Positions 3,176-35,714 of a stretch of 35,714 nt of DNA are shown piece by piece (within the stretch, counting starts at the first letter, position 1; each line of letters opens with the position of its first letter). A program made the position numbers and the translations under genes. Location of the stretch: assembly GCA_016872925.1 (NCBI GenBank), contig VGYR01000006.1:1-35714 (forward strand), given 5' to 3'. The notes below the pieces were generated by a model. It searched no databases, was not told the DNA's origin, and saw only the letters and a list, made by a program, of their open reading frames with translations. This stretch comes from Planctomycetota bacterium (GTDB lineage: Bacteria > Planctomycetota > Planctomycetia > Pirellulales > UBA1268).

Positions 3176-3178
3176 GTG

Positions 3179-4024: not shown

Positions 4025-4040
4025 TGCGTCCACACCAAGC

Positions 4041-12008: not shown

Positions 12009-13573
12009 ATGCCGACCAAGTGCCTCTTCAGCCTCATAGCAAGCGCCATCGCCGAAAACGTGGTGTTCGCATTTCCCGATGATCGAAACACACTCGCCCC
12101 TAAGACGTACAAGTTCCGGGTCCCGAATACCCGCAAGTCGCGATCGACAACGCCGGTCTCAGGGCTCTCGCCCATGACGCACCCGCCTGCTTGATGCCCG
12201 GTTTCATAGAGTCCGTCGAGGAACTCGGTTCGGCCCGCCGCCAACTCGGGCACGATCACAACGTCGGCGATCGGCGCGAGTGCGACTGCGACGCGCTCTG
12301 CGAACTGCTTGATCTGTGGCAGTTCGATCTGCCCCACGCGCCAGTCAAGAATCACCTTCGGCAGGCCGTAGACGTCGCGGCATGTGGTGTCGATCGTGAT
12401 GCGACTCTCGTCGAGGGGAACCGTTTCGCTCTGCACATGGAGCGAGATCTTGGCTGATCCCGGTATCAGCAGCCTGTGCTGTACCGCGTAGTTCCACATC
12501 AGCGGTAGGAGGTAACGAGAGCAAGCGATCGAGTTCTTCAGCAACGCCTTGAGCGACCCAACACGTCGACCGTACAACGCCGCCTTGACGAACTGCTTGA
12601 GAAACACAAGGTTCTCGGAGATGCTGCTCTCGAATGCCAGCATCGCCTGAATATTGAGATTTCCCGGTTGCCCTACAAAGTCGTTCGTCGTGCGAATCTT
12701 TGGCTGAAGCTTGTCTCCCTTCACAACGAGTGTGGCAAACGCTCGCGAGAAGTCGCGCATGGCGTGGGGCTTGATGTCGGCGATCCGGCCGCCCAAGTGA
12801 TCCTGAAACCGTCTGCCCACCATCCTGTTGTGTCGCCAGGGGCAGTCAGCCACAGTGGCACCGTGGAGCAGCAATCGCACGTTCTCGACGGTGCCCGCAG
12901 CCAAAACAAACCGCTGTCCGCGAACGCGAACGCGACGCCCCTGCCCGTCGCACACCTCCACGGCGGCGATGCGATCCCCGTCGAACGTGAACCCGCACAC
13001 TGTGGCGTCCGTCGCTACCAACAGATTGGAATCCGTCTCGATCTCTCGCGAGAACAAGACTGCCAGGTTTGGCATCCGCATCCATCGCGTCAGGAACACC
13101 TCAAGTCCCTGGCCCAACTGGGGCCGGGGCGTGCCAAGCCACTCCCAGACAGCGGGATCCTCGATGATATCGTCTGGCACACCCAACGCCTGATACGTCT
13201 CGCGGAAATGAGATGCCAACTCTTCATACCGAATGGGCCAAGCCTCGCCGCATGGCCACTCCCGTCGCTGGAGGTCTGCCGGCATGAGTTCCACGAGCTG
13301 CCCGCCCCAGAGATTCGTGGTGCCCCCAAGGGATCGACTGCGGCTGATCTGAATACCCTGATGCCGCCGTCCTACGCACTCGAAAGTTGTGTTAGCGAAG
13401 CCACCCAGAGTGCGGCCGCCTGCCTCAAGCACCAAGGCTCGCACGCCGACTCGCGCAAGCAAGACACCGAGGAACAGCCCCACGGCACCGGAGCCTACGA
13501 TCACCACTGGCGGCGCGTCGTCGCTCTCGCTCATGCGCGATAGGTCATCGAGGGCTATCTGCATATCGCCCAA
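12005..13573 (-). CDS. GMC-family FAD-dependent oxidoreductase (copy 2)
   Basis: This 522-residue GMC oxidoreductase has VVIVGSGAVGLFLG as its FAD Rossmann loop, with the acidic end LVLEAGG. SLGGTTNLWGGQLVEL follows at the flavin contact. At the C-terminus a His in GHQAGGCVMG (about residue 460) and an Asn in SSGNANTTF match the catalytic pair. No secretion signal is seen. The TTG at 13573 is the longest start. The ATG at 13564 or the ATG 39 bases below 13573 could equally serve, since no clear ribosome site distinguishes them. Its closest analogue in the window is the protein at 1580-3175. Coupled downstream to an aldo/keto reductase, it may oxidise a sugar hydroxyl to a ketone that the partner then reduces. 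Confidence 0.88.
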   Translation of the reverse strand: MGDMQIALDDLSRMSESDDAPPVVIVGSGAVGLFLGVLLARVGVRALVLEAGGRTLGGFANTTFECVGRRHQGIQISRSRSLGGTTNLWGGQLVELMPADLQRREWPCGEAWPIRYEELASHFRETYQALGVPDDIIEDPAVWEWLGTPRPQLGQGLEVFLTRWMRMPNLAVLFSREIETDSNLLVATDATVCGFTFDGDRIAAVEVCDGQGRRVRVRGQRFVLAAGTVENVRLLLHGATVADCPWRHNRMVGRRFQDHLGGRIADIKPHAMRDFSRAFATLVVKGDKLQPKIRTTNDFVGQPGNLNIQAMLAFESSISENLVFLKQFVKAALYGRRVGSLKALLKNSIACSRYLLPLMWNYAVQHRLLIPGSAKISLHVQSETVPLDESRITIDTTCRDVYGLPKVILDWRVGQIELPQIKQFAERVAVALAPIADVVIVPELAAGRTEFLDGLYETGHQAGGCVMGESPETGVVDRDLRVFGTRNLYVLGASVFRSSGNANTTFSAMALAMRLKRHLVGI

Positions 13574-16316: not shown

Positions 16317-19300
16317 CTATTCAACACGAAATCGATGCTGCCCATCCGGCACGTCGAACCGGACCCGGCCGGTTGCCTGTTCTTGACGCTCGGCAGGCGT
16401 GCCCCCGATCGCCACACGACCTTGCGGAACCCTCGCCGACTCGATCCGAACTCCGCGGGTGCCACCTCGAGTCTCCCCGTAGAGCGATTGCGCTTCGAAG
16501 ACGATTTCGACGAAGCCCGATGGATCTCTCGCACCTTCGAGGGCCACGGTGTCTCCTTCGGCTTCCACGCGATCTAGGCCTCCGAAGATCGCGATGCTCT
16601 TGACCTGGGCTGCTTCCCGAACCAGGGCCATTCCATCCACCCGCGACGAGATGGCATGCGTCTCGTCCGCCAGCCGGCAATGCATCCCGCCGGACTCCTC
16701 GTCGGGAATCACCTCGGGTGGCTTCTCCCCCTGTCGCCATGGATAGAGAAGCGCGGCGTAGGTCCGATGCGTGGAGGGTAGCCGCACCTGGAAGAGCTGT
16801 TGGCGATAGTCGCCCGCAAAGCTCTGAGTGGGACCGTAGGCTCCCGTCACGACCTCACCTCCCTGCAGCAGCGGGATCACCGCAAGATTGACGCCGAACT
16901 TTCCTGTAAAGAACGCGCCGTGTTGCGTGACTTGCTGCCGAAGCGACAGGCACCAGATGTTCCAGTCCCATGGAACCGACGCCCGCACGTCGTCGCGGAT
17001 CACCACGTAGGGTACGCCGCCGTCGCTGCTCGGCTTTACGAACAGCATCTGACGACGCCACCGAACCGGCGAGTCCGCCGTGAAAGAGCCCCCTCGTCCG
17101 GAGTTGCCAATCTCGCGAGGCGATGACAGGACCAGCCGATCAGGGCCTTCGAGCGGCTGCGGCAATGGGAGCGCCTCAAATCGGCTAAATGCCCACTCCG
17201 CGCAGGCATAGTCGGCGCCAGGGCTGGGTATCCAACCGCGGATTCTTCCTGTACCCGCGTCCTGCTCGGAGCTCTCGGCGAAACTGGGACGATTGGCCAT
17301 CCATCGCTGCCGGGTGACGTTCGACTGTCCCCCATTCTTCTCGACATCGTAGCCCCGGATGCCCGGAATCAGGCTTATCGGGGCTCCAAGGGCGTGAAAG
17401 TGAAGCCCGCCCTCCGCGTTGAAGGACGCCAGACCTCCCGGCTTTCCCGCCTCCATCGCAAGAAAGGTCTCGTCCCCTGTGCCGCAATCATGCCGGAAAA
17501 TCACACCCCAACCGTCGAGAAGGAGGCTCGTCAACTGCGGATTGCGAGGAGTGATGGAGTCGTCCGTCATCGCAAGCGTTGTCATCCCGATCCCATCTGT
17601 CGGCAGAAACTTCAGCGTCAGGGGCCGACCTGCCCGCGCCCAATACCACGCCATGCGGCCAGCAAACTCCGGGTCGTCGCGGCCAATCGCTGCAGCCGCT
17701 ATGCCCCATTGCGCCGAGCGATTCCACTGGGCCTGACCCATCCCAAATGGCGCGATATAGCCGAAGCCGTATCGAGGGTCCGGAGGAACGAGCAGTTGGC
17801 CGTAGAAGTCCAAGCCGTCACGTAGCCTTGAGTCGTTAAAAAAGTCGCGATCGCCAGACCTCTTGAGCAAGGTGGCCGACCAGACGCATAGGTCAAGCGT
17901 CAGATGACCGTACCACTCGTCCTGGCTCAAAGCCGGCAGGTGCTCTCGAGAATCAAGCACGTGATCGATTCGAGCGACTGCGACCGCCCTCCACGAAGCA
18001 GCCTTCGGGTGCGCCGGCAACAGGCAGCCGATCGCCCCCACCATGACATCACGACACGCGACCATGTCGGTATTGCCGTTGTTGCGCCCCAGCGGCTGGT
18101 AGTCGGCGGAGGTGAGCAACTCCGCCCAGAAGGACAGGAGTGCGCGGATACTCGCTTTGCAGGCAGGCGAGACGCTCGGTAACCCCAGCACGAGGTCCGC
18201 TTCGCGAATCGCCCGCGGAAGAACATCGATCGCGACGTGGAACATGCCGTAGCTGTGACCGAGCCTGTAGCCGCTCGTTCCCCCGCCCCATTTCACCTGA
18301 TGGACATGGTAATGCAGGCTAGCCTCGAGGAGAACTGCCAAGGGCGCGGCATACCGCTCGTTTCCCGTGGCAAGAAAGAGATCGTCGAGCATCATCGACG
18401 TAGAAAGCCACGCGGAGTGAAAAGGGTAGTTGGCGTCCCGCTTTGCCTCGTAGCCGGACCATGCGTTGGCCGCAGATCGAACTCGCTCGATGATCTGTGG
18501 GTTCGCAGCGGCCCTGGCCCGGAGATCCTGCCACTTTGCTCGGCGAGCGAATAGCAGCGGATACGTCAGTCCCGGAGGATCTGCGTAGTCCGGTGCCCAG
18601 TTTCTGACAGAGTCCAACGGTAGCAATCCGTATTTCATCGCGGCGACTTGCGGCGGTCGGGCCTGCTCGCGGCCGGGCCGCTCCGCGGGCTTCGGTTCTT
18701 CGGCCAGCGGCCCGGCGGCCTGCGAGGCCTTCGATCCGTAGATCGCCCAGCGCCGCGCTCCTGTGGTCACCGGGAGCACTGCTTGGACCGTGCCTTCGGG
18801 CGTCTTCTCGACGACGATCGCGTTCTCATCCAGCGCCTTCCATGCGCCAGCGCTAAGCGCAAGGATTCCCACGTAAGGCTCGAGGCCGCGGCGATAGAAC
18901 CCAGCCCAGGAACTCGCATTCAGCCACCACTCTCCGTGGGCCGGATGCAGGGTCATGATCGGTCCCGAAGAGGCCGGGACCGGAAAATCTCCCCAGGTCG
19001 CCGGGTCGCTTAAGCTGAGCGGCCATGTGCTCGCCAACGGCTGCCACGCGATGCGATCGGCCGCCACGCATCCACCTACGCCCAGAGCCCAGTAGGTTCC
19101 CTTGTCTCGCAGACGGTCGCCATACGACTTCATCACGTAGTTGCCTTCAGGCGTGCCTGCGGGCCTCACGTTCTCGAGCAGGCCGGCCGCCGGCTGTAGG
19201 TTGAACTGCTCCGAGATGAGCACAACCTCCTGGCCCGCGATCGCCTCGAGGCTCACCGTCCACTCGCCCCCGCCCTGAAATTGATAGCGAATTTGAATCG

Positions 19301-19871
19301 TCGCGCTGACGGGCCCCTTCTCCACCACGCGCGAGTCGAGCGATACCACTGCGGCTTGGCCGACCAGGTGACCGGCTTCGGCCCAATCAGCGCCTCCGAG
19401 TGAAATGGCCACCACCGGCGGACTGACGTCTGCAACAGGCACGCCTCCCTCCCAGGTCCACTCACCCAACGGGCAGAGAACGGCGATGCGGCTCGTGCCG
19501 AGCGCTACCTGAGTGCCTGACTCCTCGACGAAGAGGTCGCTGGCAGGCATACGCTGCGGCGGTGCACCCAGTTCCCACGTCTTGTCCTCGAACGCCGCGA
19601 CGCTGCCGACGAAGCTCACCACACCCCTGCGACTCCCGGGAGCCTCAGGCTTAAACTGGGCCGGCGACCACGTGCCGGAGGCATTCACGGCCAGCGCCGT
19701 CGGCTCGAGTCCCTCGGGAAGAGTGACGGCAAACCGCAGGCGCTCGTCCGTCCAGTCCTCGCCTAGCCGCTCCGTCAGCCTGAAGGATAGCCCTTCGGCA
19801 ACGAGTATTTCACTGGACGATGCGAGCGCCAGGAACGAGATGAGCACAAGGAATCGCACGACGATCTTCAA
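16317..19871 (-). CDS. Large secreted heparinase II/III-like protein (putative polysaccharide lyase)
   Basis: The protein has 1184 residues. The first 25 form a Sec signal peptide (Lys/Arg followed by VLISFLALASSS), so it is exported. Residues up to about 390 are beta-rich. About 430-760 look helical, consistent with an alpha/alpha toroid, with SYGMFHVAIDVLPRAI (near 540) and RNNGNTDMVACRDV (near 595) as candidate active-site segments. The C-terminal part is beta-rich and contains GLHFHALGAPISLIPG, which resembles the heparinase II/III sheet motif (H/D..sF.l...G..ll.dpG). The family cleaves uronic-acid polysaccharides by beta-elimination. Its ATG overlaps the upstream GT4 stop (ATGA), tying it to polymer synthesis. 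Trimming, release or recycling of the polymer is inferred. The family assignment rests on remembered motifs and the length exceeds most members. Confidence 0.65.
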   Translation of the reverse strand: MKIVVRFLVLISFLALASSSEILVAEGLSFRLTERLGEDWTDERLRFAVTLPEGLEPTALAVNASGTWSPAQFKPEAPGSRRGVVSFVGSVAAFEDKTWELGAPPQRMPASDLFVEESGTQVALGTSRIAVLCPLGEWTWEGGVPVADVSPPVVAISLGGADWAEAGHLVGQAAVVSLDSRVVEKGPVSATIQIRYQFQGGGEWTVSLEAIAGQEVVLISEQFNLQPAAGLLENVRPAGTPEGNYVMKSYGDRLRDKGTYWALGVGGCVAADRIAWQPLASTWPLSLSDPATWGDFPVPASSGPIMTLHPAHGEWWLNASSWAGFYRRGLEPYVGILALSAGAWKALDENAIVVEKTPEGTVQAVLPVTTGARRWAIYGSKASQAAGPLAEEPKPAERPGREQARPPQVAAMKYGLLPLDSVRNWAPDYADPPGLTYPLLFARRAKWQDLRARAAANPQIIERVRSAANAWSGYEAKRDANYPFHSAWLSTSMMLDDLFLATGNERYAAPLAVLLEASLHYHVHQVKWGGGTSGYRLGHSYGMFHVAIDVLPRAIREADLVLGLPSVSPACKASIRALLSFWAELLTSADYQPLGRNNGNTDMVACRDVMVGAIGCLLPAHPKAASWRAVAVARIDHVLDSREHLPALSQDEWYGHLTLDLCVWSATLLKRSGDRDFFNDSRLRDGLDFYGQLLVPPDPRYGFGYIAPFGMGQAQWNRSAQWGIAAAAIGRDDPEFAGRMAWYWARAGRPLTLKFLPTDGIGMTTLAMTDDSITPRNPQLTSLLLDGWGVIFRHDCGTGDETFLAMEAGKPGGLASFNAEGGLHFHALGAPISLIPGIRGYDVEKNGGQSNVTRQRWMANRPSFAESSEQDAGTGRIRGWIPSPGADYACAEWAFSRFEALPLPQPLEGPDRLVLSSPREIGNSGRGGSFTADSPVRWRRQMLFVKPSSDGGVPYVVIRDDVRASVPWDWNIWCLSLRQQVTQHGAFFTGKFGVNLAVIPLLQGGEVVTGAYGPTQSFAGDYRQQLFQVRLPSTHRTYAALLYPWRQGEKPPEVIPDEESGGMHCRLADETHAISSRVDGMALVREAAQVKSIAIFGGLDRVEAEGDTVALEGARDPSGFVEIVFEAQSLYGETRGGTRGVRIESARVPQGRVAIGGTPAERQEQATGRVRFDVPDGQHRFRVE

Positions 19872-26610: not shown

Positions 26611-27804
26611 TCAGGCCGCCAGGCTCAGGAACATGCGCTCATATGCCGCCACCAGCGTTGGCTGCGCGTATCGTGCCGTGACGTAGTCGATGATCGCCTG
26701 CGGAGGCGGCAGTTCGATGGACTTCTGGAGCACCGCGGCGACCAACTCCCCGAATCTCGCATCCGCCCCGGGCGGAACGAGCAACTGCGGCATGATCGGC
26801 GCGAGCATCTCCGGGATCGCGCCAACGCATGTCGCCACCAACGGCAGCCCTACCGCCATGGCCTCCTGGGCGATCACACCAAAGCACTCCAGGGCTCTGG
26901 ATGGGAGCAGGAACACATCTGCGGCCTGATAGGCTAGGCGGAGCGTGTCATCGGGAACTCGCCCGTGGAAGGAGACGCCCCCTGCAAGGCCCAACTCCCA
27001 GGCAAGCCGCTCCAGGCGGAGTCGCGACTCTCCATCGCCTATCACGTGGAACTCGCATGCGCGGCTTCTCACCAGCGAACTGACGCCGCGGACCGCACAC
27101 TCTACCCCGTACCGTGGTCGCAGCTGCCGCACCGTCAAGACAACGGGAGACTCCTCACGCCACCCAAGCACGCGGCGTGCAGCCCGCTGGTCGGTGGTGC
27201 GACACCATCTGCGATCGATCCAATGCGGGATCAGGATCCACGGTTTTTCACACGCTCGCGGATACAGACTTTCGATGCGCGATCGGGTGTATTCGGAAAG
27301 CGAGTGGCAGATGGACGCGGCCCCCAACGCCGCGCTCTCCAGCCTGCGAATCGTCGCCAAACCCGGCAACTTCAGCGCGCCGCCGAGCCCCTCGTGCGTC
27401 CAGTTCCAGAGCTGCTCGAGATACGCGGGGGAGTGAATCGTTTGCACGATCGGGACATGCCGGTCCGTGGCTTCCGCCGCGGCAAGCACGCCATAGATTC
27501 CATGACCATGGACCACGTCCCAGCTCCGCGGGTCGCTGATCGCGGTGATGGCTGCCCGATAGTGCGCGATCCGGACCGACGGATTTCGTGGGTCAAAAGC
27601 CGACACTCGCGGTTGCGCGAACCGCCAAACCTGCACGTCATCGACTCGCTGCGGCTCAAGGTCCGACGAACCAAGGAACGCGGGACACAGGAGGTGAACA
27701 TCGTGCCCCTGCCTCGCCATGGCACGACACACGTCCCACGCGACACGGGCCAGACCCGTGGGATACTCGGGAAAAAACGTCTCGGCGATGGCCAGCAACC
27801 TCAT
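26611..27804 (-). CDS. Glycosyltransferase family 4
   Basis: This is a 397-residue GT-B enzyme starting MRLLAIAETFFPEYPTGLAR. VVHGHGIYGV and PIVQTIHSPAYLEQ lie in the acceptor domain, and VVLTVRQLRPRYGVECAV opens the donor domain. ECFGVIAQE within SRALECFGVIAQEAMAVG is the EX7E motif. The ATG at 27804 overlaps the flippase stop as ATGA. The open frame extends a further 148 codons upstream to 28248, but that part is antisense-like, Arg/Gly/Ser-rich, overlaps the flippase entirely and has no homology; it should not be annotated as coding. Confidence 0.92.
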   Translation of the reverse strand: MRLLAIAETFFPEYPTGLARVAWDVCRAMARQGHDVHLLCPAFLGSSDLEPQRVDDVQVWRFAQPRVSAFDPRNPSVRIAHYRAAITAISDPRSWDVVHGHGIYGVLAAAEATDRHVPIVQTIHSPAYLEQLWNWTHEGLGGALKLPGLATIRRLESAALGAASICHSLSEYTRSRIESLYPRACEKPWILIPHWIDRRWCRTTDQRAARRVLGWREESPVVLTVRQLRPRYGVECAVRGVSSLVRSRACEFHVIGDGESRLRLERLAWELGLAGGVSFHGRVPDDTLRLAYQAADVFLLPSRALECFGVIAQEAMAVGLPLVATCVGAIPEMLAPIMPQLLVPPGADARFGELVAAVLQKSIELPPPQAIIDYVTARYAQPTLVAAYERMFLSLAA

Positions 27805-29327
27805 CGAAGCCCACCCCGCCGACCGCCGCTTACGGGAATCATGCGGATTGCGAGGCTCCTGAGCTCGCCTGAGCATCCGAGAAGACACGTGGCATAGACC
27901 ACTGCAAAGGCACTGCAGGTGATAGCCAAGCCGAGGAAATCGCGGGCAACGAGCGTGGTCGCCGCTGCCGCTGCCGCCGCCGCTAGCGCTGCTGCTGCGC
28001 ATGCTTTCACGGCATCGATCGCCAAACCCGACCACCGACCACGATCCCAGGCGGAATGCGACCCGATCACCTTCGGCAGCAGCCACCAGGTCGTCAAGGC
28101 CCCCGCAAACAGCGGGGACGCAAGAAGCCCCACCATTCCGAAGAGCCAGGCCCCGATCGCCCCGATGCAGATCGCCAGCATGCTCTTCGCCAGGAGCGCC
28201 CGTCCGCTCACCGCATACAAACCCATCGCTGCACAGACATTGATGCACGTGGTCTCCAGAGTCCCGGCCAGCAGGCCGATCGCGATCAAGGCATTCGGCT
28301 CATCCCCCGCGTAAAACTCGCCACCCGCCCACAGCCTGACGAACGATGGGTTCAAAAGCATCGTCGCCATCGCGGCGGGAACGGCAATCCAGATGGCCGC
28401 GCGAACGACCGCGGCCATGGCGGCCGCGGAGTTGGTGCCTCCCCTTTCGGCATCGATAACGCTCAGTACCGGAGTGGCGGCGTGAGAAACCCGCTCCGCG
28501 AGCATGCGCAGCATCAGCGGAGCACGCTGGGTGACGTTTAGCGCCACCGTCGGAGCAGCACCGAGAAACCACGCGGCCATGATCATGTCGGAGTTCGACG
28601 CCAAAGCGGAGCCAGCGCGGCCAAGGAAAACACCGCGGCTCTCGCGGACGAGTCCTCCGACGCCGTCGAACGATCTCCGGGTCGGCCAGCCGGTCGCGGG
28701 CATCGTCAGGCTCGCATACGCCAGATTTCCAGTCAGGACGACGATCGCCTGCGCCAACAATCCTATGGGCAGCGACACGATGCCACGGCCGCCCCGAAGG
28801 AGCATGATGACAAGGGCCAGATTCACCATTTGCCCCACCAGCGCGATCACCCCATGAGCCGCAGGAGCCTGGGTTCCGAGCGTGACCACCGCCGCCCCAT
28901 ACGAGACGACGAAAACGGCCATCGCCACGGCGGCAATTAGGTACGCCACTGCGACCTGAGTTGTCTGCTCACATCCGATCCGCTCCACGAGCACCGCATG
29001 GAGGGGCAAGGCGAGGACCGCGGCGGTCAGTGTCACCATGGCAAATGCGCCGGCAAGAACGTAGGCCTGGACTCGCAGTCGGTTGATCGCCTGCAGATCC
29101 TGATGCGCGTGCGCCGCGGCGATGCGCTGCTGGATCACGAGATGCACCCCTGGATCAAGAAGGCCGACCCAACCAAGCAAGTTTCCAGTGACGAGCCATG
29201 CCCCGAACGTGGCTTCCGGCACATAGGCGAGACACATCGGCGTGATGATCAATCCTTGCACCAGATGCACCGCGATCTGGAGGTAGGCAAAGGCGACACC
29301 AACAAACGTGTTTCGCAGATGCCCCAC
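27801..29327 (-). CDS. Wzx-like oligosaccharide flippase (MOP superfamily), copy 2
   Basis: This 508-residue polytopic membrane protein has about fourteen hydrophobic segments, larger than copy 1. The N-terminus FAYLQIAVHLVQGLIITPMC with TFGAWLVTGNLLGWVGLLDPG is typical of polysaccharide flippases in exopolysaccharide loci. LARAGSALASNSDMIM-like sequence in the middle (GRAGSALASNSDMI) matches the second half-repeat. It probably translocates the undecaprenyl-linked repeat unit. Initiation is a GTG at 29327, about 55 bases after the NeuD-like gene. It is coupled to the downstream GT4 by an ATGA overlap. Having two flippases raises the question of whether two polymers are made. Confidence 0.88.
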   Translation of the reverse strand: MGHLRNTFVGVAFAYLQIAVHLVQGLIITPMCLAYVPEATFGAWLVTGNLLGWVGLLDPGVHLVIQQRIAAAHAHQDLQAINRLRVQAYVLAGAFAMVTLTAAVLALPLHAVLVERIGCEQTTQVAVAYLIAAVAMAVFVVSYGAAVVTLGTQAPAAHGVIALVGQMVNLALVIMLLRGGRGIVSLPIGLLAQAIVVLTGNLAYASLTMPATGWPTRRSFDGVGGLVRESRGVFLGRAGSALASNSDMIMAAWFLGAAPTVALNVTQRAPLMLRMLAERVSHAATPVLSVIDAERGGTNSAAAMAAVVRAAIWIAVPAAMATMLLNPSFVRLWAGGEFYAGDEPNALIAIGLLAGTLETTCINVCAAMGLYAVSGRALLAKSMLAICIGAIGAWLFGMVGLLASPLFAGALTTWWLLPKVIGSHSAWDRGRWSGLAIDAVKACAAAALAAAAAAAATTLVARDFLGLAITCSAFAVVYATCLLGCSGELRSLAIRMIPVSGGRRGGLR

Positions 29328-29382: not shown

Positions 29383-30150
29383 CTATCGACTCACATCGAG
29401 ATCGACGCGCGGCGAGATACGGCCCGGCACGCCGTATACCAGAGAGTCGGGAGGAACCGCCGACAGGGCGCATGAGTTCGCGCTGACTTTGCTACGCGAT
29501 CCTACCGAAACACCAGGCCCCACCGAGGCGTGAAGCCCGAGAAACACATCGTCGCCAATCGACGCGGCACCGCCGAGTGTCGAGTAAGGCGAGAGCACAG
29601 CATACGCGCCAGCTGTGGCATCATGCCCCAGTGACGCGTGGTAGTTGACAAGCACGCACTCGCCCAGCGTGCTCGAGTCGCTGACCACGGCATGCGGGCA
29701 GACAATCGATCCCGCCCCGACGGAAGACGTCTCGCTCACGGACGCAGAGGGATGCACAAGGCTGATGAACGTTGCCCCGCGCTGCCGTAAGTGCTCGGCC
29801 ACAGTGCGCCTCGCATACGCAACTCCGATCGCCAACAGATACGCGGTGCCAGCTTCCGGCCAGTGGTCTTTCACCGTGCCCAGTATTTGGGGCATCAAGC
29901 GGAATCCGTTCAGCCTCGTCAAATCGTCCGAGAGAAACCCTGCAATCAGGCCATCCGACTCAGGCCAAGCATCGGAGGCCCACTGGACGACTTCGCGGCC
30001 AAAGCCGCCGGCTCCGACGACCAAGACTCGTCGAATCTCAGGAGACGGCTGAAAACGATGCTGCTGCCACGAACGTCGTGAAGCGCCGGCAGCGAGCGTG
30101 CTCTGCCAGATGTCGTGCCAGCCTCCAATCTGAGGTCTGCGACTGTTCAT
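29383..30150 (-). CDS. NeuD/PglD-like sugar O-/N-acyltransferase (left-handed beta-helix)
   Basis: This is a protein of about 255 residues. An N-terminal nucleotide-sugar-binding domain starts RRVLVVGAGGFGREVV. It is followed by hexapeptide-repeat coils (VSETSSVGAGSIVCPHAVV, then IGDDVFLGLHASVGPGVSVG) and a closing VYGVPGR. The His in NYHASLGHDA is where PglD/NeuD enzymes keep their catalytic base. They transfer an acyl group from acyl-CoA to an amino sugar. Here an acyl carrier protein, ligase and reductase sit immediately upstream, so an acyl-ACP donor is conceivable. The start is uncertain: the ATG at 30150 follows the SDR stop by 17 bases, and a GTG at 30177 overlaps it. About 38 residues precede the conserved domain, which is longer than usual. 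Confidence 0.88.
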   Translation of the reverse strand: MNSRRPQIGGWHDIWQSTLAAGASRRSWQQHRFQPSPEIRRVLVVGAGGFGREVVQWASDAWPESDGLIAGFLSDDLTRLNGFRLMPQILGTVKDHWPEAGTAYLLAIGVAYARRTVAEHLRQRGATFISLVHPSASVSETSSVGAGSIVCPHAVVSDSSTLGECVLVNYHASLGHDATAGAYAVLSPYSTLGGAASIGDDVFLGLHASVGPGVSVGSRSKVSANSCALSAVPPDSLVYGVPGRISPRVDLDVSR

Positions 30151-30166: not shown

Positions 30167-30895
30167 TCAGGATCCACCGTCGACTCCGACCACCTGCGAG
30201 GTCACAAACGACATGCCGGACCCTGAAACGGTCGAGACGACCCCTGCGACATCGGCCGTCGTCCCAAGACGCTGCATGGCCAGCCTTCGCGAGATACGCT
30301 CGCGATTTTCCATCGCCAGCGACGCCGAAAGATCGGTGTCAAGGAAGCCCGGCGCAAGTGCGTTGACTCGGATTCCACGAGGGCCCAGCTCCCGAGCAAG
30401 GCAAATGCAAAAGCCCTCCAAAGCTGCTTTGGTGGCCGCGTAGACGGAGAGACCTGGCGATCCACGTGACGCTACCACCGACGAGATCAGGGTGACCGAG
30501 CGATCCCCGTCAGCGGCGACAAGCATCTGGCGAACGCACTCTCGAACAAACACGATGGTGCCGGTCACGTTTACAGCGACCATCGACTCAATCTCATCAT
30601 CGCGCATGGTCGCGAGTACGCCCTCGTGAGCGATCGCGGCGTTGGCGACGCAGTGGTCGATTTGGCCGAACCGCGCAGCCACGCCAGCCACGAACTCACG
30701 GATCTGAAGCAGACTTGCCGCATCCGCACGGGCTGCATGAAGACACTCAGGATTCGCCGCCAATAATGCGTCGAGCTGCGGAGAAGTTGATCGCGAGAAC
30801 GTGGCCACCCGATCGCCGCGGGCGAGGAGCGACTGAACGATTGCAAAACCGAGCCCACGAGAGCCACCAGACACGACGGAAACGGGCGATGTCAT
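30167..30895 (-). CDS. Short-chain dehydrogenase/reductase (FabG-like)
   Basis: This 242-residue classical SDR has the cofactor loop SGGSRGLGFA (9-18), NAAIAHEG, Asn109, Ser138/139 and the catalytic pair Tyr152/Lys156 in VYAATKAALE. The C-terminus GVDGGS matches the FabG-type ending. Arg/Ser after the second strand (TFSRST) suggests NADP(H). The ATG at 30895 overlaps the ligase stop (ATGA). Next to a dedicated acyl carrier protein and ligase, the simplest role is reduction of a 3-oxoacyl group on the carrier to a 3-hydroxyacyl group, as FabG does. A sugar reductase is an alternative. No ketosynthase accompanies it here. Confidence 0.88.
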   Translation of the reverse strand: MTSPVSVVSGGSRGLGFAIVQSLLARGDRVATFSRSTSPQLDALLAANPECLHAARADAASLLQIREFVAGVAARFGQIDHCVANAAIAHEGVLATMRDDEIESMVAVNVTGTIVFVRECVRQMLVAADGDRSVTLISSVVASRGSPGLSVYAATKAALEGFCICLARELGPRGIRVNALAPGFLDTDLSASLAMENRERISRRLAMQRLGTTADVAGVVSTVSGSGMSFVTSQVVGVDGGS

Positions 30896-32253
30896 CGGAC
30901 GACGGCGGGACGGCGGGAGGTTTTGCCGGCGGACGTGGTTGTGATCCGCTTCACGAGATCGAGGATCCGAGGCACGCCATGCGGCTCGAGCGAATCGCGA
31001 CAGGCCGCGAGCGCCGCGGCACGGATGCCCTCGGGCGTGGATCCTGCAGGGAGCGGGTCGGCAAGGACGATCTCCGCGGCCACGAGCTCACCGGTGATCG
31101 CACTCGGCTGGCCATACACCCGGGCCTCCACCACCCCGGACACACCCCGCAGCACCTCCTCCACCCGCTTCGGAAACACCTTCGCGCCGCCTACCACGAT
31201 CACATCGCTGCGGCGGCCGGTGAACTCGAAGCGGTCGCCGCGCCGCTCGACCACGTCGCCCGTGGCGACTTCCGCGGAGTCGCGGGAGAGCTGCACGAGC
31301 AGCTCGCCGTCGCGGCGCGTCGAGATCCGCACGCCGCCGGGAAGCTCTCGCCCCAGCCACGCCGCGGGAAAGCCCGGCTGGCCATCGGCGACCCGAAACA
31401 CCTCGCCCAGCTCCGTGGTGGCATACACATGCGTGATCCGGGCTGCGGGAAACATGTCTCGCGCCTTGGCCAGCAACGGCCCGTCGGCCGCCTCGCCTCC
31501 GAGCGTGATCCGCTCCGGCTTTGCGGCAGCGAGCAGCCCAGGATCGGCCGAGGCCAGCAGCCGCCGCAGCAGCGTGGGCGTGGCCGGCAGAATCGCCACC
31601 CGCTCCTCGACGAGCGCTCGCGCGACGACGTCGGGATCCCGGGAGGCGGGCACCACGAGCCTCCCGCCCGTGAGCAGCGACTGCCCCCACACCTGGATGC
31701 CAGCCCAGCGCGTGGCGTCGTAGGCCAAAAGCCAGCCGAGCCCCTGCCACTGCTCGGCGAGTCGGGCGGCGGAAAGCACAGCATCCCACGTGCGCTGCAC
31801 GAGCTTTGGGGGGCCGCTCGTGCCCGACGTGGCCACGACCACGTGCGGCGGGCCGGAATAGAGGGCGTCGCGCTGGCGACCGCCCGCTGAAACGGCCAAC
31901 GAGTCGTCGACGACCAGCCAGTCGCGGAGCTCGCCGACAAGATCGCGGGCGTCGTCGGGCACGAGCGCGACCGGCACTCCCTGGCGACCGCACGCTGCCG
32001 CCACGGCCACGAGCGACTCGACTCGGCGAGCTCTGACAACGACCCCGGCCGGTCGCGCGGCGGCGAGGGCCGCTTCGACGGCCGAGATGCTCTTGGCCAG
32101 GTCGGCGTAGGCGACGGCTCTGCGGCTCGGGCCGCCCGCGTCGGCTACCACCGCGAGGCGGCTCGCGTCCTGACGGGCGGTCTCGTCGATCGCCACGGCC
32201 AGCCGCTCGGCGGCGGGCTCGGCGTGAACCCGCGAGAGGTCGAGGGAGGTCAT
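30892..32253 (-). CDS. AMP-forming acyl ligase (ANL superfamily), likely loading the adjacent carrier protein
   Basis: The 453-residue adenylate-forming enzyme has the phosphate-binding loop VATSGTSGPPK (140-150), YATTELGEVF as motif A5, and GDVVERRGDRFEFTGRRSD as the hinge region. PHGVPRILDLVKRI then AGKTSRR supplies the C-terminal catalytic lysine. It is compact compared with typical acyl-CoA synthetases (500-600), resembling small ligases in natural-product loci. The start is the ATG at 32253, overlapping the carrier-protein stop as ATGA. The open frame running on to 32808 crosses the carrier and sugar transferase in another frame and is not coding. It probably activates a carboxylic acid with ATP and hands it to the carrier or CoA. 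Confidence 0.88.
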   Translation of the reverse strand: MTSLDLSRVHAEPAAERLAVAIDETARQDASRLAVVADAGGPSRRAVAYADLAKSISAVEAALAAARPAGVVVRARRVESLVAVAAACGRQGVPVALVPDDARDLVGELRDWLVVDDSLAVSAGGRQRDALYSGPPHVVVATSGTSGPPKLVQRTWDAVLSAARLAEQWQGLGWLLAYDATRWAGIQVWGQSLLTGGRLVVPASRDPDVVARALVEERVAILPATPTLLRRLLASADPGLLAAAKPERITLGGEAADGPLLAKARDMFPAARITHVYATTELGEVFRVADGQPGFPAAWLGRELPGGVRISTRRDGELLVQLSRDSAEVATGDVVERRGDRFEFTGRRSDVIVVGGAKVFPKRVEEVLRGVSGVVEARVYGQPSAITGELVAAEIVLADPLPAGSTPEGIRAAALAACRDSLEPHGVPRILDLVKRITTTSAGKTSRRPAVVR

Positions 32254-32513
32254 GAGCGACTCACGGCCTCCGTGTAGATCGCGATCAGATCTCCCACCGT
32301 GCGGATCGAGGGCCGACCAGCCGCCTCCGCCCGAAACGGGTCGACGCCGAGCGATCGCTCGAGGAGCACGATCGTCTGGGCGAGATCGAGCGAGTCGAGC
32401 CCGAGATCGGTGGAGAGGAGCATGGCGGGCGCCACGTCTTTCGCGTCGCGGCCCGTGTCGTGGAGGACGGTTCGGATCGCCGTTGCGATCGCATCGGGCA
32501 CGGTCGGCTTCAC
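32250..32513 (-). CDS. Acyl carrier protein
   Basis: The 87-residue four-helix carrier protein has the phosphopantetheine attachment serine at Ser41 in DLGLDSLDLAQ, preceded by an acidic loop. The second half (VLLERSLGVDPF, then RTVGDLIAIYTEAV) matches helices II-IV of the ACP fold. It is a dedicated carrier embedded in a glycan locus, not the fatty-acid AcpP, which normally sits with fab genes. It starts at a GTG at 32513, overlapping the stop of the sugar transferase (GTGA). It overlaps the ligase by ATGA, giving stoichiometric coupled expression. The cargo is not known. Confidence 0.92.
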   Translation of the reverse strand: MKPTVPDAIATAIRTVLHDTGRDAKDVAPAMLLSTDLGLDSLDLAQTIVLLERSLGVDPFRAEAAGRPSIRTVGDLIAIYTEAVSRS

Positions 32514-33169
32514 GGCGCAAACTCCTGCATGGTGGCGGTGCCGGGGGCGGCGATGCCGCGGCCGGTGATCGCCTGAGCCACCATTTGAAACGCGGTGAGG
32601 CTCGCAATCCAGAGATCGGTGAGCACGGCCCCCGGCTGGCCGAGCATCTCGACGTAGCGGGCGTCGAACTCCAGCCGCTCGGGCCAGGCGACGGCATTGC
32701 GGCCGTGCACCTGCGCCCAGCCCGTGAGGCCAGGCCGCACCAGGAGCCGTGAGGCCTGGCGGGGGTTGTAGCGCGGCACATACCGCATGGGGAGCGGGCG
32801 AGGGCCAATCAGGCTCATGTCGCCGCGGACAACGCTAAAGAGCTGGGGAAGCTCGTCGAGGCTCGTCCGGCGGAGCACACGCCCAAACACCCCGAGGCGG
32901 GCAGCGTCGGGCAGCGGCTGACCCGACGCATCGGCGGCCTGAGTCATCGAGCGAAACTTGGCGATCTGGATTGGCACGCCGCCCATGCCGGCCCGCTCCT
33001 CGCGATAGAGGATCGGCGGACCGAGCACCACGAGCACGGCGAGGCCGGTGACCACCATCAGCGGGAGGGCGACGACGAGCGCGAGCGACGCAACCACGAG
33101 ATCGCAGAGGCGTTTCATGAAGCGGGCGTAGAGCGTGGTGGGCGCGGAAGGGATGCGGGATTCAATCAC
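32510..33169 (-). CDS. PglC/WcaJ-type monotopic phosphoglycosyl transferase (initiating sugar transferase)
   Basis: This 219-residue enzyme transfers a sugar-1-phosphate from a nucleotide sugar to undecaprenyl phosphate, starting repeat-unit synthesis. One N-terminal re-entrant hydrophobic segment (about 22-52) follows YARFMKRLCDLV. The catalytic domain has KFRSMTQAAD (71-80), the catalytic Asp-Glu in RTSLDELPQLF (101-111), RGDMSLIGPRPLPMRYVPRY, and PGLTGWAQVHGRN. It lacks the extra N-terminal membrane bundle of long WbaP/WcaJ types, so it is of the short PglC class. The start is the GTG at 33169. A later ATG at 33118 would remove the conserved Tyr-x-x-Phe segment. The upstream region carries repeats and may contain its promoter. 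Confidence 0.93.
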   Translation of the reverse strand: MIESRIPSAPTTLYARFMKRLCDLVVASLALVVALPLMVVTGLAVLVVLGPPILYREERAGMGGVPIQIAKFRSMTQAADASGQPLPDAARLGVFGRVLRRTSLDELPQLFSVVRGDMSLIGPRPLPMRYVPRYNPRQASRLLVRPGLTGWAQVHGRNAVAWPERLEFDARYVEMLGQPGAVLTDLWIASLTAFQMVAQAITGRGIAAPGTATMQEFAP

Positions 33170-33192: not shown

Positions 33193-33214
33193 GCCGTACC
33201 GCTTACGCGGTTAC
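33193..33214 (+). repeat. Palindromic repeat, copy 1
   Basis: A 22-base unit containing GTACCGCTTACGCGGTTAC can fold on itself (CCGC against GCGG). An identical copy lies 96 bases downstream at 33289-33310, and both are followed by near-identical bases (cttcc). It resembles short intergenic palindromes I associate with planctomycete genomes. Confidence 0.8.
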
Positions 33215-33238
33215 GCTTCCAGCCATCGGCATACGAAA

Positions 33239-33264
33239 GCCCCAATCGCGTGAGCGATGGGGGC
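33239..33264. repeat. GC-rich hairpin repeat, copy 1
   Basis: GCCCC, ATCGC, a 4-base loop, GCGAT and GGGGC form a stem of about ten pairs. On the minus strand it is followed by TTTCG, a short T run, so it may terminate transcription of the aminotransferase/WecA-like pair. A close copy in inverted orientation is at 35682-35705 on the other side of that gene pair. Confidence 0.7.
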
Positions 33265-33288: not shown

Positions 33289-33310
33289 GCCGTACCGCTT
33301 ACGCGGTTAC
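33289..33310 (+). repeat. Palindromic repeat, copy 2, overlapping a stop codon
   Basis: This is identical over 22 bases to the unit at 33193-33214. It overlaps the 3' end of the WecA-like gene, whose TAA stop (33309-33307 on the minus strand) lies inside the repeat. The two copies flank the hairpin at 33239-33264, so the 120-base gap between the genes is almost all repeat sequence. Confidence 0.8.
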
Positions 33311-34350
33311 CCTTCCTGGATGTGAACGAGGGTGAGGAGCAACCCGATGCCCACGAGAATCATCGCGGCGGCCAGGTGCGTGGCGGTCGGTTCGGGGCAC
33401 GCGCCGAGCAACGGCGCGACGGCGACGGCGGCCGCCATCGCCGACAGCCCGCCGTAGAGGCTCGAGACGGCTCGGTGCGACCACCCTGCGATCACCAGCC
33501 GCTGGTAGATGTGGCTGCGGTGCGCCTGGAAGATGTTCTCCCGACGGATGAGCCGGCGGCCGAGCGTGAACAGGGTGTCGAAGATGAAGGGCCACATCGT
33601 CACGGCCGTGATCGCCGTCACGCGACCGACCGCCGCGCTGCCGGTCGCCAGGGGCAGGGCGGCGATCATGAAGCCGCAGAAGGCGCTGCCCACATCTCCC
33701 ATGAAGATCCTGGCCGGCGGCCAGTTGCAGGCCAGAAACCCCGCCGCCGCGCCAGCGAACGCCAGGGCCACGGCGGCCACCGGCTCGACACCCGAGAACG
33801 CGGCCGCGGCGGCGATCGCACCGCCGGCCGCCGCCGCGGTGATTCCCGCGATGCCGTCGATGCCGTCCATGAAGTTGAAGGCGTTGGTCATCCCGATGAT
33901 CCAGATCAGGGTCAGCGGCCAGGCGGCCGCGGCCAACTCCAGCCGCCCAAAGGAGCCGAGGTCAACATCCCGCACGGGTGCGAGCAAGGCCGTGGTGGCG
34001 GCGGCGGCGGCAAGGTGCACGCCGAACCTCACCCGGTTGCGGAGGGGCTTGAGGTCGTCGAGCCAACTGACCGCCGCGATCGCCAGGGCGGGCACCGCCA
34101 CGGCCGCCAGGCCGCGGCGGCCGGCGGGCCAGATCACGGCGGCGATGATCGCCGCCCACGTGGTGATCGCCACGATCGAGATCCCGCCGCCCCGCGGCGT
34201 GGCACGCGTGTGACTGGAGCGATCGTTCGGGCGGTCGATCACGCCCAGCGAGGCAGCCCAGCCGACGAGCCATGCGGTGGCGGCGGCCGCTCCCACGTAG
34301 GCGGCCAGAAACCAGGCCGACCAGCCGACCGCAGACCCCGAGCTGATCAC
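33307..34350 (-). CDS. WecA/MraY-like polytopic phosphoglycosyl transferase
   Basis: This 347-residue membrane enzyme has about ten to eleven hydrophobic segments. It belongs to the polyprenyl-phosphate N-acetylhexosamine-1-phosphate transferase family. All family motifs are present: SHTRATPRGGG (46-56), WLDDLKPL with the Asp pair (about 97-104), NAFNFMDGIDGIAG (156-169), FMGDVGSAF (216-224), and AHRSHIYQRL (about 265-275). It would load HexNAc-1-phosphate on undecaprenyl phosphate. It starts at a GTG at 34350, overlapping the aminotransferase stop (GTGA). The frame continues upstream across that gene in another register, which is not coding. It is very Ala-rich, consistent with the high GC of this part. 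Confidence 0.93.
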   Translation of the reverse strand: MISSGSAVGWSAWFLAAYVGAAAATAWLVGWAASLGVIDRPNDRSSHTRATPRGGGISIVAITTWAAIIAAVIWPAGRRGLAAVAVPALAIAAVSWLDDLKPLRNRVRFGVHLAAAAATTALLAPVRDVDLGSFGRLELAAAAWPLTLIWIIGMTNAFNFMDGIDGIAGITAAAAGGAIAAAAAFSGVEPVAAVALAFAGAAAGFLACNWPPARIFMGDVGSAFCGFMIAALPLATGSAAVGRVTAITAVTMWPFIFDTLFTLGRRLIRRENIFQAHRSHIYQRLVIAGWSHRAVSSLYGGLSAMAAAVAVAPLLGACPEPTATHLAAAMILVGIGLLLTLVHIQEG

Positions 34351-35633
34351 GCCACCTGCTTGGCGTTGGCGATCACGTCGCAGACTTCCGCCACGATCGC
34401 CTCGTCGACGTGGGCGCCGATCGGCAGCGCGAGGCTGCGGGCGGCGAGCACGTCGGTCACCGGCAGGGGCCGCATCCGGTCGTGGAAGTGCTCGTAGGCG
34501 GTCTGGCGATGGCACGGAGGATCGTAGTACGCCCGCGTCTCGATGCCTTTGGCGCCGAGGGCTCGGCGGAGGGCGTCGCGGGTCATGCCGAACCGGGACG
34601 GGTCGATCGTGATCGAGAAATCCTTGTGGCTCGACCGGGCGCCGGCCATCGACTCCACGAAGCCGATGCCCGGCAGACCGCCGAGCTCCCGGCGATAGAG
34701 CGCGGCGAGTTCGTTCCGCCGATCCGACGCCTGGCCCAGCAGATCGAGCGACGCCAGGGCCGTGGCCGCGCTCAACTCGGGCATCCGGCCATTCACTCCC
34801 GGGAAGAGGGCGTCGTACGAGCCGTCGTTGCCGTATTCGCGCCCCAGGCGGACGAAGTGGGCCAGGCAGTCGCAGTTGGTGGCGACGATGCCCCCCTCGC
34901 CGGCGACGAGCAGCTTCGTGGGGGAGAGGCTGAACACCTGGGCCGTGGCGCCGGCACCGACGGGGCGGCCGTGGACGCTGGCCCCGAAGCCATGGGCGGC
35001 GTCGATCACCAGCGGCAGGCCGTGCTCGCTCGCCACCGCCTCGAGGGCCGGGATGTCGCACGGGTTGCCGAAGTTGTGGCAGGCGGCGATCGCCACCGTC
35101 CGGGGCGTGATCGCCAAGCGGATCGCCTGCGGCGTGACGTTGGTGGTCAACGGATCGACCTCGACGAACACCGGCCGGAGGTTGTTCCAGACGATGGCCG
35201 CCGCCGCCGCCAGGAACGTGAAGCTCGGCATCACGACCTCGCCGAGGGGCTCCGTCCGGGTGCCGGTGCGGGCCACGCCAAAGCGGGACAGCGGCTCCAT
35301 CGAGGCCACGGCACACGGGTCGACGGCCGAACGTCGGCTGCGGCAACTACCGGCCGAGAGGTCGAGCGCGCGGTAGACGAGTATCAGGCCCACGGTGCAG
35401 CTGCTCACGGCCACGGCGTGCCGCACGCCGAGCCGCTTGGCAATCGCCTGCTCGAGCCGCTCGCAGTAGGGCCCCTTCGTGAGCCGGCCGCTGCGGATGA
35501 TCTCGTCGAACGCGGGCTGGAGGATCTCGGGCGCAGGCAGGGCCGGACGGACGAACGGCACGCGAATGCCCTGCCGCGACGGGTCGCCGGAGGCATGCAC
35601 CTCGGGGATCAACTGGAGAGTGTCGCGCTTCAT
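34347..35633 (-). CDS. DegT/DnrJ/EryC1/StrS-family PLP aminotransferase with an internal insertion
   Basis: This 428-residue sugar aminotransferase acts on a nucleotide-linked keto sugar, as PglE does. It begins RVPFVRPALP. The cofactor region AVAVSSCTVGLIL, then HNFGNPCDIPAL, VIDAAHGFGA (Asp211) and the Schiff-base lysine Lys240 in SLSPTKLLVAGEGG are all present. EYGNDGSYDALFPGVNGRMP matches the family's closing motif. Residues 96-130 (SCRSRRS to RTEPL) have no counterpart in the normal layout, where SAG would run straight into EVVMPSFTF. The protein is therefore about 35 residues longer than expected there. The ATG at 35633 has GAGG nine bases upstream. TATAAC near 35651 could be a -10 box. 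Confidence 0.92.
   Translation of the reverse strand: MKRDTLQLIPEVHASGDPSRQGIRVPFVRPALPAPEILQPAFDEIIRSGRLTKGPYCERLEQAIAKRLGVRHAVAVSSCTVGLILVYRALDLSAGSCRSRRSAVDPCAVASMEPLSRFGVARTGTRTEPLGEVVMPSFTFLAAAAAIVWNNLRPVFVEVDPLTTNVTPQAIRLAITPRTVAIAACHNFGNPCDIPALEAVASEHGLPLVIDAAHGFGASVHGRPVGAGATAQVFSLSPTKLLVAGEGGIVATNCDCLAHFVRLGREYGNDGSYDALFPGVNGRMPELSAATALASLDLLGQASDRRNELAALYRRELGGLPGIGFVESMAGARSSHKDFSITIDPSRFGMTRDALRRALGAKGIETRAYYDPPCHRQTAYEHFHDRMRPLPVTDVLAARSLALPIGAHVDEAIVAEVCDVIANAKQVA
35244..35348 (-). other. 105-base in-frame insertion within the aminotransferase gene
   Basis: The segment encodes residues 96-130, which interrupt a strand-turn that is continuous in family members I know. The flanks carry imperfect inverted arms, GACCTC at 35235-35240 and GAGGTC at 35358-35363. 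It is rich in CGG/CCG triplets, encodes many Arg, Ser and Thr, and contains two Cys. It looks like a repeat element captured in frame, though this is inferred by eye without an alignment. Confidence 0.5.
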
Positions 35634-35681: not shown

Positions 35682-35705
35682 GCCCCATCGCTCCGCGATT
35701 GGGGC
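35682..35705. repeat. GC-rich hairpin repeat, copy 2
   Basis: GCCCC, ATCGC, a 3-base loop, GCGAT and GGGGC pair as in the copy at 33239-33264, but in the opposite orientation. It lies about 50 bases upstream of the aminotransferase start. It may be the terminator of a gene beyond the window, or a REP-like element. Confidence 0.65.
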
Positions 35706-35714
35706 TTCCGCAGA

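Follow-up and report, generated by a model that had tools for sequence, protein, structure and literature searches.

In mupirocin biosynthesis, MupQ, MupS and the carrier protein MacpD convert malonyl-coenzyme A (CoA) into 3-hydroxypropionate or 3-hydroxypropionyl-acyl carrier protein (ACP), according to the part of PMC10098928 that covers these proteins. In the wfp glycan cluster of Flavobacterium psychrophilum, a PglD homologue has been proposed to acylate N4 of bacillosamine with an acyl-ACP as donor, followed by a PglC-type transfer (excerpt of PMC6519341). We analyzed contig VGYR01000006.1 of a planctomycete (Planctomycetota bacterium, Pirellulales, UBA1268; assembly GCA_016872925.1), a stretch of 35,714 nucleotides hereafter called the window, which is one whole contig of a 4.5 Mb draft genome. 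On its minus strand, a trio of ACP, AMP-forming acyl ligase and short-chain reductase (SDR) lies between an initiating phosphoglycosyltransferase (PGT) and a NeuD/PglD-like acyltransferase. The strongest new point is the clade of the reductase together with the trio shared with the antibiotic cassette, and the weakest points are the identity of the acyl group and the step from ACP to NeuD. No publication tying a MupQ-type cassette to glycans was found in the open-licence literature, and the link suggested here by sequence comparison appears to be unpublished within that literature.

The earlier note had described four genes with 4-base overlaps followed by a NeuD/PglD-like acyltransferase, and gene calls and Pfam matches confirmed these as intact neighbours. 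The PGT (32510..33169; 219 residues, PglC-like in size; PF02397, E 1.9e-49), the ACP (32250..32513; 87 residues; PF00550, 28.6 bits against a cut-off of 20.8), the ligase (30892..32253; 453 residues from ATG; PF00501 and PF13193) and the SDR (30167..30895; 242 residues) are joined by three overlaps of 4 bases each. The ATG of the NeuD/PglD/VioB-family hexapeptide acyltransferase (29383..30150; hereafter NeuD) is located at 30150, 16 bases past the SDR stop, and an alternative GTG at 30177 overlaps the SDR. The residues that the note had considered intact were indeed so: Ser41 of the ACP is present within LGLDSLDLAQ, the ligase residues S143, G144, G147, K150, E281, G332, D333, R347, E365 and K444 are identical in 24/24 sequences including the window, and the SDR retains the tetrad N109, S139, Y152 and K156.

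The reductase and its partners

Among solved structures, the best homologue of the SDR was MupS (4yxf, E 1.4e-45), with a runner-up at 1.8e-35. In a tree of 56 SDRs, the window SDR was placed in a clade of 22 rows together with MupS and the SDR of plasmid pTML1 (support 100/98), and the latter two nested beside planctomycete rows within the clade (96/85). Cassette SDRs from Azospirillum, Rhodobacterales, Paraglaciecola, Nocardioides and Bradyrhizobium were also found in this clade, whereas the true FabG of the same genome (L069) fell outside, as did other SDRs and a second group of cassette SDRs. The tree contained the window and five further rows of its family, and left aside one fragment (L093_2) and two partial SDRs of the same genome (L075 and L076); L055 and L087, which are an identical protein, occupy two rows both here and in the ligase tree. 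A Gly at the position of residue 93 of E. coli FabG was present in 38/38 MupS-clade rows. The SDR scored 166.6 with TIGR01830, under the cut-off of 297.75, and another gene of the genome passed this model with 312.2. A hidden Markov model (HMM) built from the SDRs of the window's family gave 222 bits for the pTML1 SDR, 173 for E. coli FabG and 155 for the genome's own FabG; the clade member L055/L087, at 175 bits, hardly exceeded E. coli FabG.

As judged from these comparisons, the reductase is of the MupS type and is distinct from the housekeeping FabG. The family search had suggested a FabG identity, which was given up once solved structures and the tree placed the SDR with MupS. Thus, of the FabG-like reductase in the earlier note, the SDR assignment and the intact Tyr/Lys pair were retained and the grouping with FabG was not. 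The note had also proposed that a custom acid is adenylated and then perhaps reduced. A hydroxyacyl product is still likely, but since the reductase is of the MupS type, a dicarboxylic acid in the form of its CoA half-thioester may be the substrate, instead of a β-keto acid.

The priming cassette is reported to act through a bis CoA/ACP thioester intermediate, and the thiomarinol set is said to convert succinyl-CoA to a 4-hydroxybutyryl group. We take pTML1 to be the thiomarinol plasmid and the counterparts labelled TmlQ, TmlS and TacpD to be its ligase, reductase and carrier. When plasmids were searched with the window ligase by tblastn, 711 records matched, among them pTML1 of Pseudoalteromonas sp. 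SANK 73390 with 29% identity. Ligase, SDR and ACP are adjacent on pTML1 and are followed by polyketide synthase (PKS) genes. The mupirocin/thiomarinol cassette resembles the window in having an adjacent ACP, an adenylating ligase and an SDR of the MupS clade. The two differ in gene order (ACP-ligase-SDR in the window, ligase-SDR-ACP on pTML1), and the C-terminally extended ACP and downstream PKS of the antibiotic cassette contrast with the window ACP of 87 residues, after which no PKS follows. Unlike the trio of pTML1, that of the window is surrounded by PGT, a DegT aminotransferase and NeuD, and is followed by a flippase-like gene.

The AlphaFold2 (AF2) model of the ligase had a mean predicted local distance difference test score (pLDDT) of 88.9, and the best fold matches were adenylate-forming ligases. 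A tree of 55 ligases separated two subfamilies, A (19 rows, 99/99) with the window ligase and B (20 rows, 100/99) with that of pTML1. This tree contained seven same-family rows, out of 25 genomes, and 16 controls picked among 59 low scorers; L067 was missing because of a length filter, and MupQ itself was not among the rows. Since the window ligase belongs to a sister subfamily of the pTML1 ligase, the substrate is not transferable by homology. Leave-out HMMs were built from the window's family alone, since an earlier ligase HMM had been trained with cassette members. The leave-out ligase HMM gave 133 bits for the pTML1 ligase and at most 91 for ordinary ligases; L104, a ligase with an SDR nearby, scored 77 bits and fell among the ordinary ligases. 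An identity as an exosortase A-associated acyl ligase (TIGR03098) was rejected because the score was 44.4 bits against a cut-off of 592.35. The second-best solved-sequence match of the ACP was MacpD, a weak one (E 3.7e-05), and the ACP HMM of the window's family gave 34 bits for the pTML1 ACP and 14 for E. coli AcpP.

Conservation of the module

The ligase was used as a query on 60 genomes, of which 37, including the window's own, belong to the same family. It was detected in 25 of the 37, with 24 matches above 500 bits and a contig-edge fragment of 74% identity in G024. When the surrounding genes were clustered by similarity, the order PglF-like dehydratase-DegT-WecA-like-PGT-ACP-ligase-SDR-NeuD recurred in relatives, so that the gene order noted in the window was recovered in other genomes of the family. 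The WecA-like gene is missing from some of these blocks, and a Wza-type export gene flanks the far side of the block in relatives. Dehydratase, DegT, PGT, ACP, ligase and SDR occurred together in 10/25 same-family stretches including the window, seven of which also had NeuD, and the same six genes were found in two more (G031, G034) once uncalled genes were added. The stretches, the window among them, often end at contig ends. The most constant junction was the 4-base overlap of PGT and ACP, which was present in 13 of 15 loci of the family, window included, in which both genes were called; that of ACP and ligase was kept in just 6/18. Since the PGT/ACP overlap recurs in this way, the arrangement is beyond chance.

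Co-occurrence was evaluated with cut-offs of E 1e-8 for ACP and E 1e-20 for NeuD. The ACP was found in 23/37 genomes and NeuD in 20/37, two of these partial. Ligase and ACP were both present in 22 genomes, ligase alone in three, ACP alone in one and neither in 11; a contig edge is involved in one of the three genomes with ligase alone and in the single genome with ACP alone. Ligase and NeuD were both present in 20, ligase alone in five, NeuD alone in none and neither in 12. Fisher's test, uncorrected for shared ancestry, gave 5e-6 for ligase and ACP and 3e-6 for ligase and NeuD. The SDR search at E 1e-60 misses SDRs that are present in G010, G015, G025 and G034 and was not used to score absence. 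The conserved order and the co-inheritance with NeuD (20/25 genomes with ligase, 0/12 without) support the earlier view of a dedicated acyl module that is linked to the start of glycan synthesis.

In G001 and G006 the ligase is present, whereas neither genome yielded an ACP or a cassette-type NeuD, and no SDR was found in the surrounding 20 and 11 kb, respectively. Their NeuD matches, suggested by TIGR03570 scores, were rejected as partners because a cassette-specific HMM gave just 50 and 54 bits, and they were not counted because the window NeuD did not retrieve them at E 1e-20. In these two loci (L047, L048) the ligase has no ACP, SDR, PGT or cassette NeuD nearby and adjoins a pyridoxamine-oxidase-like gene.

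In five relatives (L033, L034, L035, L037, L039), small genes lie between ligase and SDR. They were rejected as clues to the substrate because they encode UPF0150/HicB-like and HicA proteins. The locus L034 of G017 has a second ligase-SDR copy (1572-2942) with no ACP among the called genes and a partial NeuD beside it. The annotated recurrent neighbour clusters comprised export protein, dehydratase, NusG-like, TPR, glycosyltransferase, ABC and toxin-antitoxin proteins.

A wider genome collection was also scanned with the ligase, and the best 80 of 204 loci were divided by the family ligase HMM into 21 with a score of at least 290 and 59 with lower scores; a partner was counted if it lay on the ligase strand at a distance of at most 2.5 kb. 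Among the 21 high-scoring loci, an SDR was nearby in 20, an ACP in 16 and both in 15, and eight had a glycan marker in the stretch, whereas the 59 lower-scoring loci had an SDR in three, an ACP in one, and both or a glycan marker in none. The trio occurred with PKS genes (L056, L063, L068), with aminotransferase or NeuD-like genes, and with a pseudaminic acid synthase, the latter accompanied by flagellin in Azospirillum (L064, L065) and by none in the scanned stretch of Paraglaciecola (L078). The ACP-ligase-SDR trio thus looks like a reusable module. In L056, a planctomycete, and L068, a Bradyrhizobium plasmid, the MupS-type trio directly precedes large PKS-like genes, which are candidates for primed polyketide pathways. 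A second cassette type, mostly in the order ACP-SDR-ligase, was seen in L057, L058, L083, L085, L088-L092, L094, L096 and L101, and its SDRs form their own clade outside MupS.

The sugar, the acyl group and alternative readings

The DegT/DnrJ/EryC1 aminotransferase (34347..35633, minus strand; PF01041, E 2.4e-89), for which a PglE-like role is inferred, lies upstream of the PGT, with a WecA/MraY-type polyprenyl-phosphate sugar transferase (33307..34326, minus strand, precise start uncertain; PF00953, E 9.5e-36) in between, a position kept in relatives. The contig breaks off before the upstream neighbour of DegT. On another contig of the genome (C126), a PglF homologue was found that is 68% identical to PglF of a relative's block. 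Because it ends 125 bases short of the end of C126 and the DegT start lies 81 bases from the end of the window, the two genes probably adjoin each other, with an assembly gap between the unjoined contigs. Taken together, PglF, PglE-like, PglD-like and PglC-like functions suggest a UDP-2-acetamido-4-amino-2,4,6-trideoxy sugar. A PglF-like dehydratase and an aminotransferase in the conserved block suggest a 4-amino-4,6-dideoxy sugar, and homologues of PglF (by identity) and of PglE, PglC and PglD (by domain), present together with the dedicated ACP and the reductase, point to a bacillosamine-like sugar of the above type. Pgl functions were assigned to a sugar in a like manner in F. psychrophilum (available part of PMC6519341). 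A loop of about 40 residues in DegT (residues about 93-133; window 35235-35357) is common to several relatives and absent in others; an inserted mobile piece was rejected as its origin, since several relatives share the loop and the genome has no second copy.

The NeuD protein has PglD_N (PF17836, 24.1 bits, cut-off 23.4) and Hexapep domains and a left-handed β-helix fold (AF2, Foldseek). Its model had a pLDDT of 90.4, and the best fold matches were PglB-ATD, PerB, VioB, WeeI and PglD, enzymes acting at C4 amines. The catalytic histidine of the family is retained: His176 (ATG numbering) aligns with the His replaced by Asn in PerB H141N, and His176-Asp177 is invariant in 16/16 aligned sequences. 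The motif SANS, found for GAG in planctomycete NeuDs, was rejected as a marker of ACP use because two cassette NeuDs of other families retain GAG.

On this basis, we propose with somewhat less than even confidence that the cluster makes an N-acyl bacillosamine-type sugar through a CoA-derived hydroxyacyl-ACP and NeuD. The dehydratase and DegT would form the UDP-4-amino-4,6-dideoxy sugar. The ligase would adenylate a short acid and load it on holo-ACP, for whose formation one phosphopantetheinyl transferase match in the genome is a candidate; most likely, malonyl-CoA or succinyl-CoA supplies this acid through its free carboxylate, as in the mupirocin/thiomarinol cassettes. The MupS-type reductase would convert the intermediate to a short hydroxyacyl-ACP, with 3-hydroxypropionyl or 4-hydroxybutyryl favoured, NeuD would move this group from ACP onto the C4 amine, and the PGT would place the N-acyl sugar on a lipid carrier and start a surface glycan. 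We regard the use of a hydroxyacyl-ACP by NeuD as fairly probable and, provided that it occurs, ω-hydroxy chemistry as probable to a similar degree. An ω-hydroxyacyl amide is thus our leading guess, followed by a 3-hydroxybutyryl amide, on the basis of the MupQ/MupS/MacpD chemistry, the chemistry reported for thiomarinol and 4-hydroxybutyrate amides found on bacterial sugars. The polysaccharide of 'I. abyssalis' KMM 227, presumably an Idiomarina, contains Qui3N(4Hb), and amide-linked 4-hydroxybutyrate is also described on pseudaminic acid (part of PMC9912281).

Several observations weigh against this proposal. Ligase subfamilies A and B are joined, apart from the 16 ordinary ligases, only at 95/57, and the ACP of 87 residues is short compared with the MacpD chain (138) and the pTML1 ACP (111). 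The ligase without ACP in G001 and G006 contradicts a strict unit that includes the ligase, although the pattern fits ACP, SDR and NeuD travelling together. NeuD scored 152.3 bits with TIGR03570, narrowly under the cut-off of 160.8, which cassette NeuDs of G007, G011, G012 and G013 exceed, and its solved relatives were crystallised with acetyl-CoA or CoA. NeuD was not found in 5/25 genomes with the ligase, is on another contig than the ligase in 5/20 (G012, G021, G026, G029, G034), and lies 0.8-2.7 kb away from the SDR in three relatives.

The reductase bears on a classical ketoreduction, in which the ligase loads acetoacetate or another β-keto acid, or a housekeeping synthase supplies acetoacetyl-ACP, the SDR forms 3-hydroxybutyryl-ACP and NeuD transfers 3-hydroxybutyrate. 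A hydroxybutyryl amino sugar made through ACP and reductase is established in Pseudomonas syringae (PMC3927599, in part), and FabG models are the top NCBIfam matches of the SDR, yet below their cut-offs. However, the SDR groups with MupS and away from FabG, and no ketosynthase or dedicated ketoacyl-ACP synthase match was obtained among the 31 window proteins scanned. Arg129 and Arg172 of FabG function in ACP docking (excerpt of PMC8007833); the former is Gly in the SDR, likewise in MupS, although the latter is kept as R173. We consider this route unlikely.

The points against the use of the acyl-ACP by NeuD would agree with a module that decorates a protein, a lipid or a glycan residue added later, with NeuD making di-N-acetylbacillosamine from acetyl-CoA, as its solved relatives are acetyltransferases. 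Against this, none of the 37 genomes of the family had a cassette-type NeuD in the absence of the ligase, the overlap of PGT and ACP is conserved, and the annotated recurrent neighbour clusters include no second acyltransferase, small clusters c9 and c10 having no Pfam match. We consider this possibility quite unlikely. Very unlikely is the loading of an amino acid or a ready hydroxy acid such as glycerate, with the SDR acting on the sugar or elsewhere. AMP ligase and carrier protein are the general logic of DltA/DltC-like systems, which speaks for such loading. So do the glyceryl amides described on Qui4N (part of PMC9912281), but the SDR is a near-constant partner of the ligase (20/21) and that of the window belongs to the MupS clade. 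Finally, a reading of the ligase as a plain acyl-CoA synthetase, with an incidental ACP, is most improbable: the enzyme resembles many acyl-CoA ligases and two genomes have it with no ACP match, but it scores far below the curated cut-offs, and the ACP occurs in 22/25 ligase genomes against 1/12 of the others and near the ligase in 16/21 scanned loci.

Downstream of NeuD, a Wzx-like flippase candidate (27801..29327, minus strand) matched an O-unit flippase-like model weakly (E 0.00087, 18.4 bits, cut-off 300), and glycosyltransferases follow in the same minus-strand order. A carbamoyltransferase (PF02543/PF16861; 4820-6583) amid glycosyltransferases suggests a carbamoylated glycan. A pair of GMC oxidoreductase and aldo/keto reductase occurs twice (1580-4072 and 11169-13573), and an open frame of 1184 residues (16317-19871) scores well as coding sequence and matches no Pfam model. 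Near the gap between the PGT and the WecA-like gene, near-identical short repeats are found (33193-33220 and 33289-33316; 33234-33262 and 35683-35710), one of which has an inverted copy at the contig end.

Comparison with glycan loci of other bacteria

Bacterial sugars with unusual N-acyl groups are known from chemistry, and the enzymes that supply these groups are often just guessed. The idea of the earlier note that an unusual N-acyl sugar is built from an acyl-ACP gained comparative support for the module but has precedents. The O-polysaccharide of F. psychrophilum contains Qui2NAc4NR, in which R is 3,5-dihydroxyhexanoyl and nuclear magnetic resonance places the group at 4N (excerpt of PMC6519341). 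Like the window, wfp has pglE, pglF, a PglC homologue, a dedicated ACP, a reductase (there of 3-ketoacyl-ACP) and a PglD homologue, whereas it has two 3-ketoacyl-ACP synthases, and no AMP ligase is mentioned in the excerpt, the word 'ligase' being absent from the text of the paper. In P. syringae, a vioR deletion mutant lacked modified viosamine, and ACP and 3-oxoacyl-ACP reductase genes serve to make the hydroxybutyryl amino sugar (part of PMC3927599). The viosamine island, and that of P. aeruginosa PAK, share with the window an ACP, a reductase (there of 3-oxoacyl-ACP) and a VioB acyltransferase. They differ in a 3-oxoacyl-ACP synthase III (VioS), in the lack of an AMP ligase among the seven genes tabled there, and in the product, dTDP-viosamine for a flagellin glycan.

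Trios with similar annotations have been described in two further settings. Group II polar-flagellin islands of Aeromonas (orf1-orf2-orf3) encode an ACP, a 3-oxoacyl-ACP reductase and an AMP-dependent synthetase (part of PMC7874193). They resemble the window in that the trio lies inside a glycan locus, in this case for pseudaminic acid, and differ in the nonulosonic-acid pathway and in luxC/luxE; the text concerned mentions neither a PGT beside the ACP nor the roles of single genes. The O-antigen of Yersinia ruckeri O1 reportedly carries a 4-hydroxybutyramido group. In this species, the O1-only genes BI323_13885, BI323_13890 and BI323_13895 encode a phosphopantetheine protein, an AMP-dependent synthetase and a 3-oxoacyl-ACP reductase (part of PMC5552943), with consecutive tags in the order of the window and listed apart from the legionaminic cluster.

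It is possible, though doubtful, that one trio serves both antibiotic PKSs and surface glycans, making from malonyl- or succinyl-CoA an ω-hydroxyacyl-ACP that replaces acetyl-CoA for a PglD homologue, so that the first lipid-linked sugar gains an arm with a free terminal hydroxyl. If this is true, the hydroxyl arm could serve the extension or branching of the glycan, the three-gene signature would predict ω-hydroxyacyl amides in other glycan loci, and the decoration of glycans would be linked to the starter-unit chemistry of antibiotics. The window NeuD would then be an ACP-dependent relative of PglD for comparison with the acetyl-CoA enzymes.

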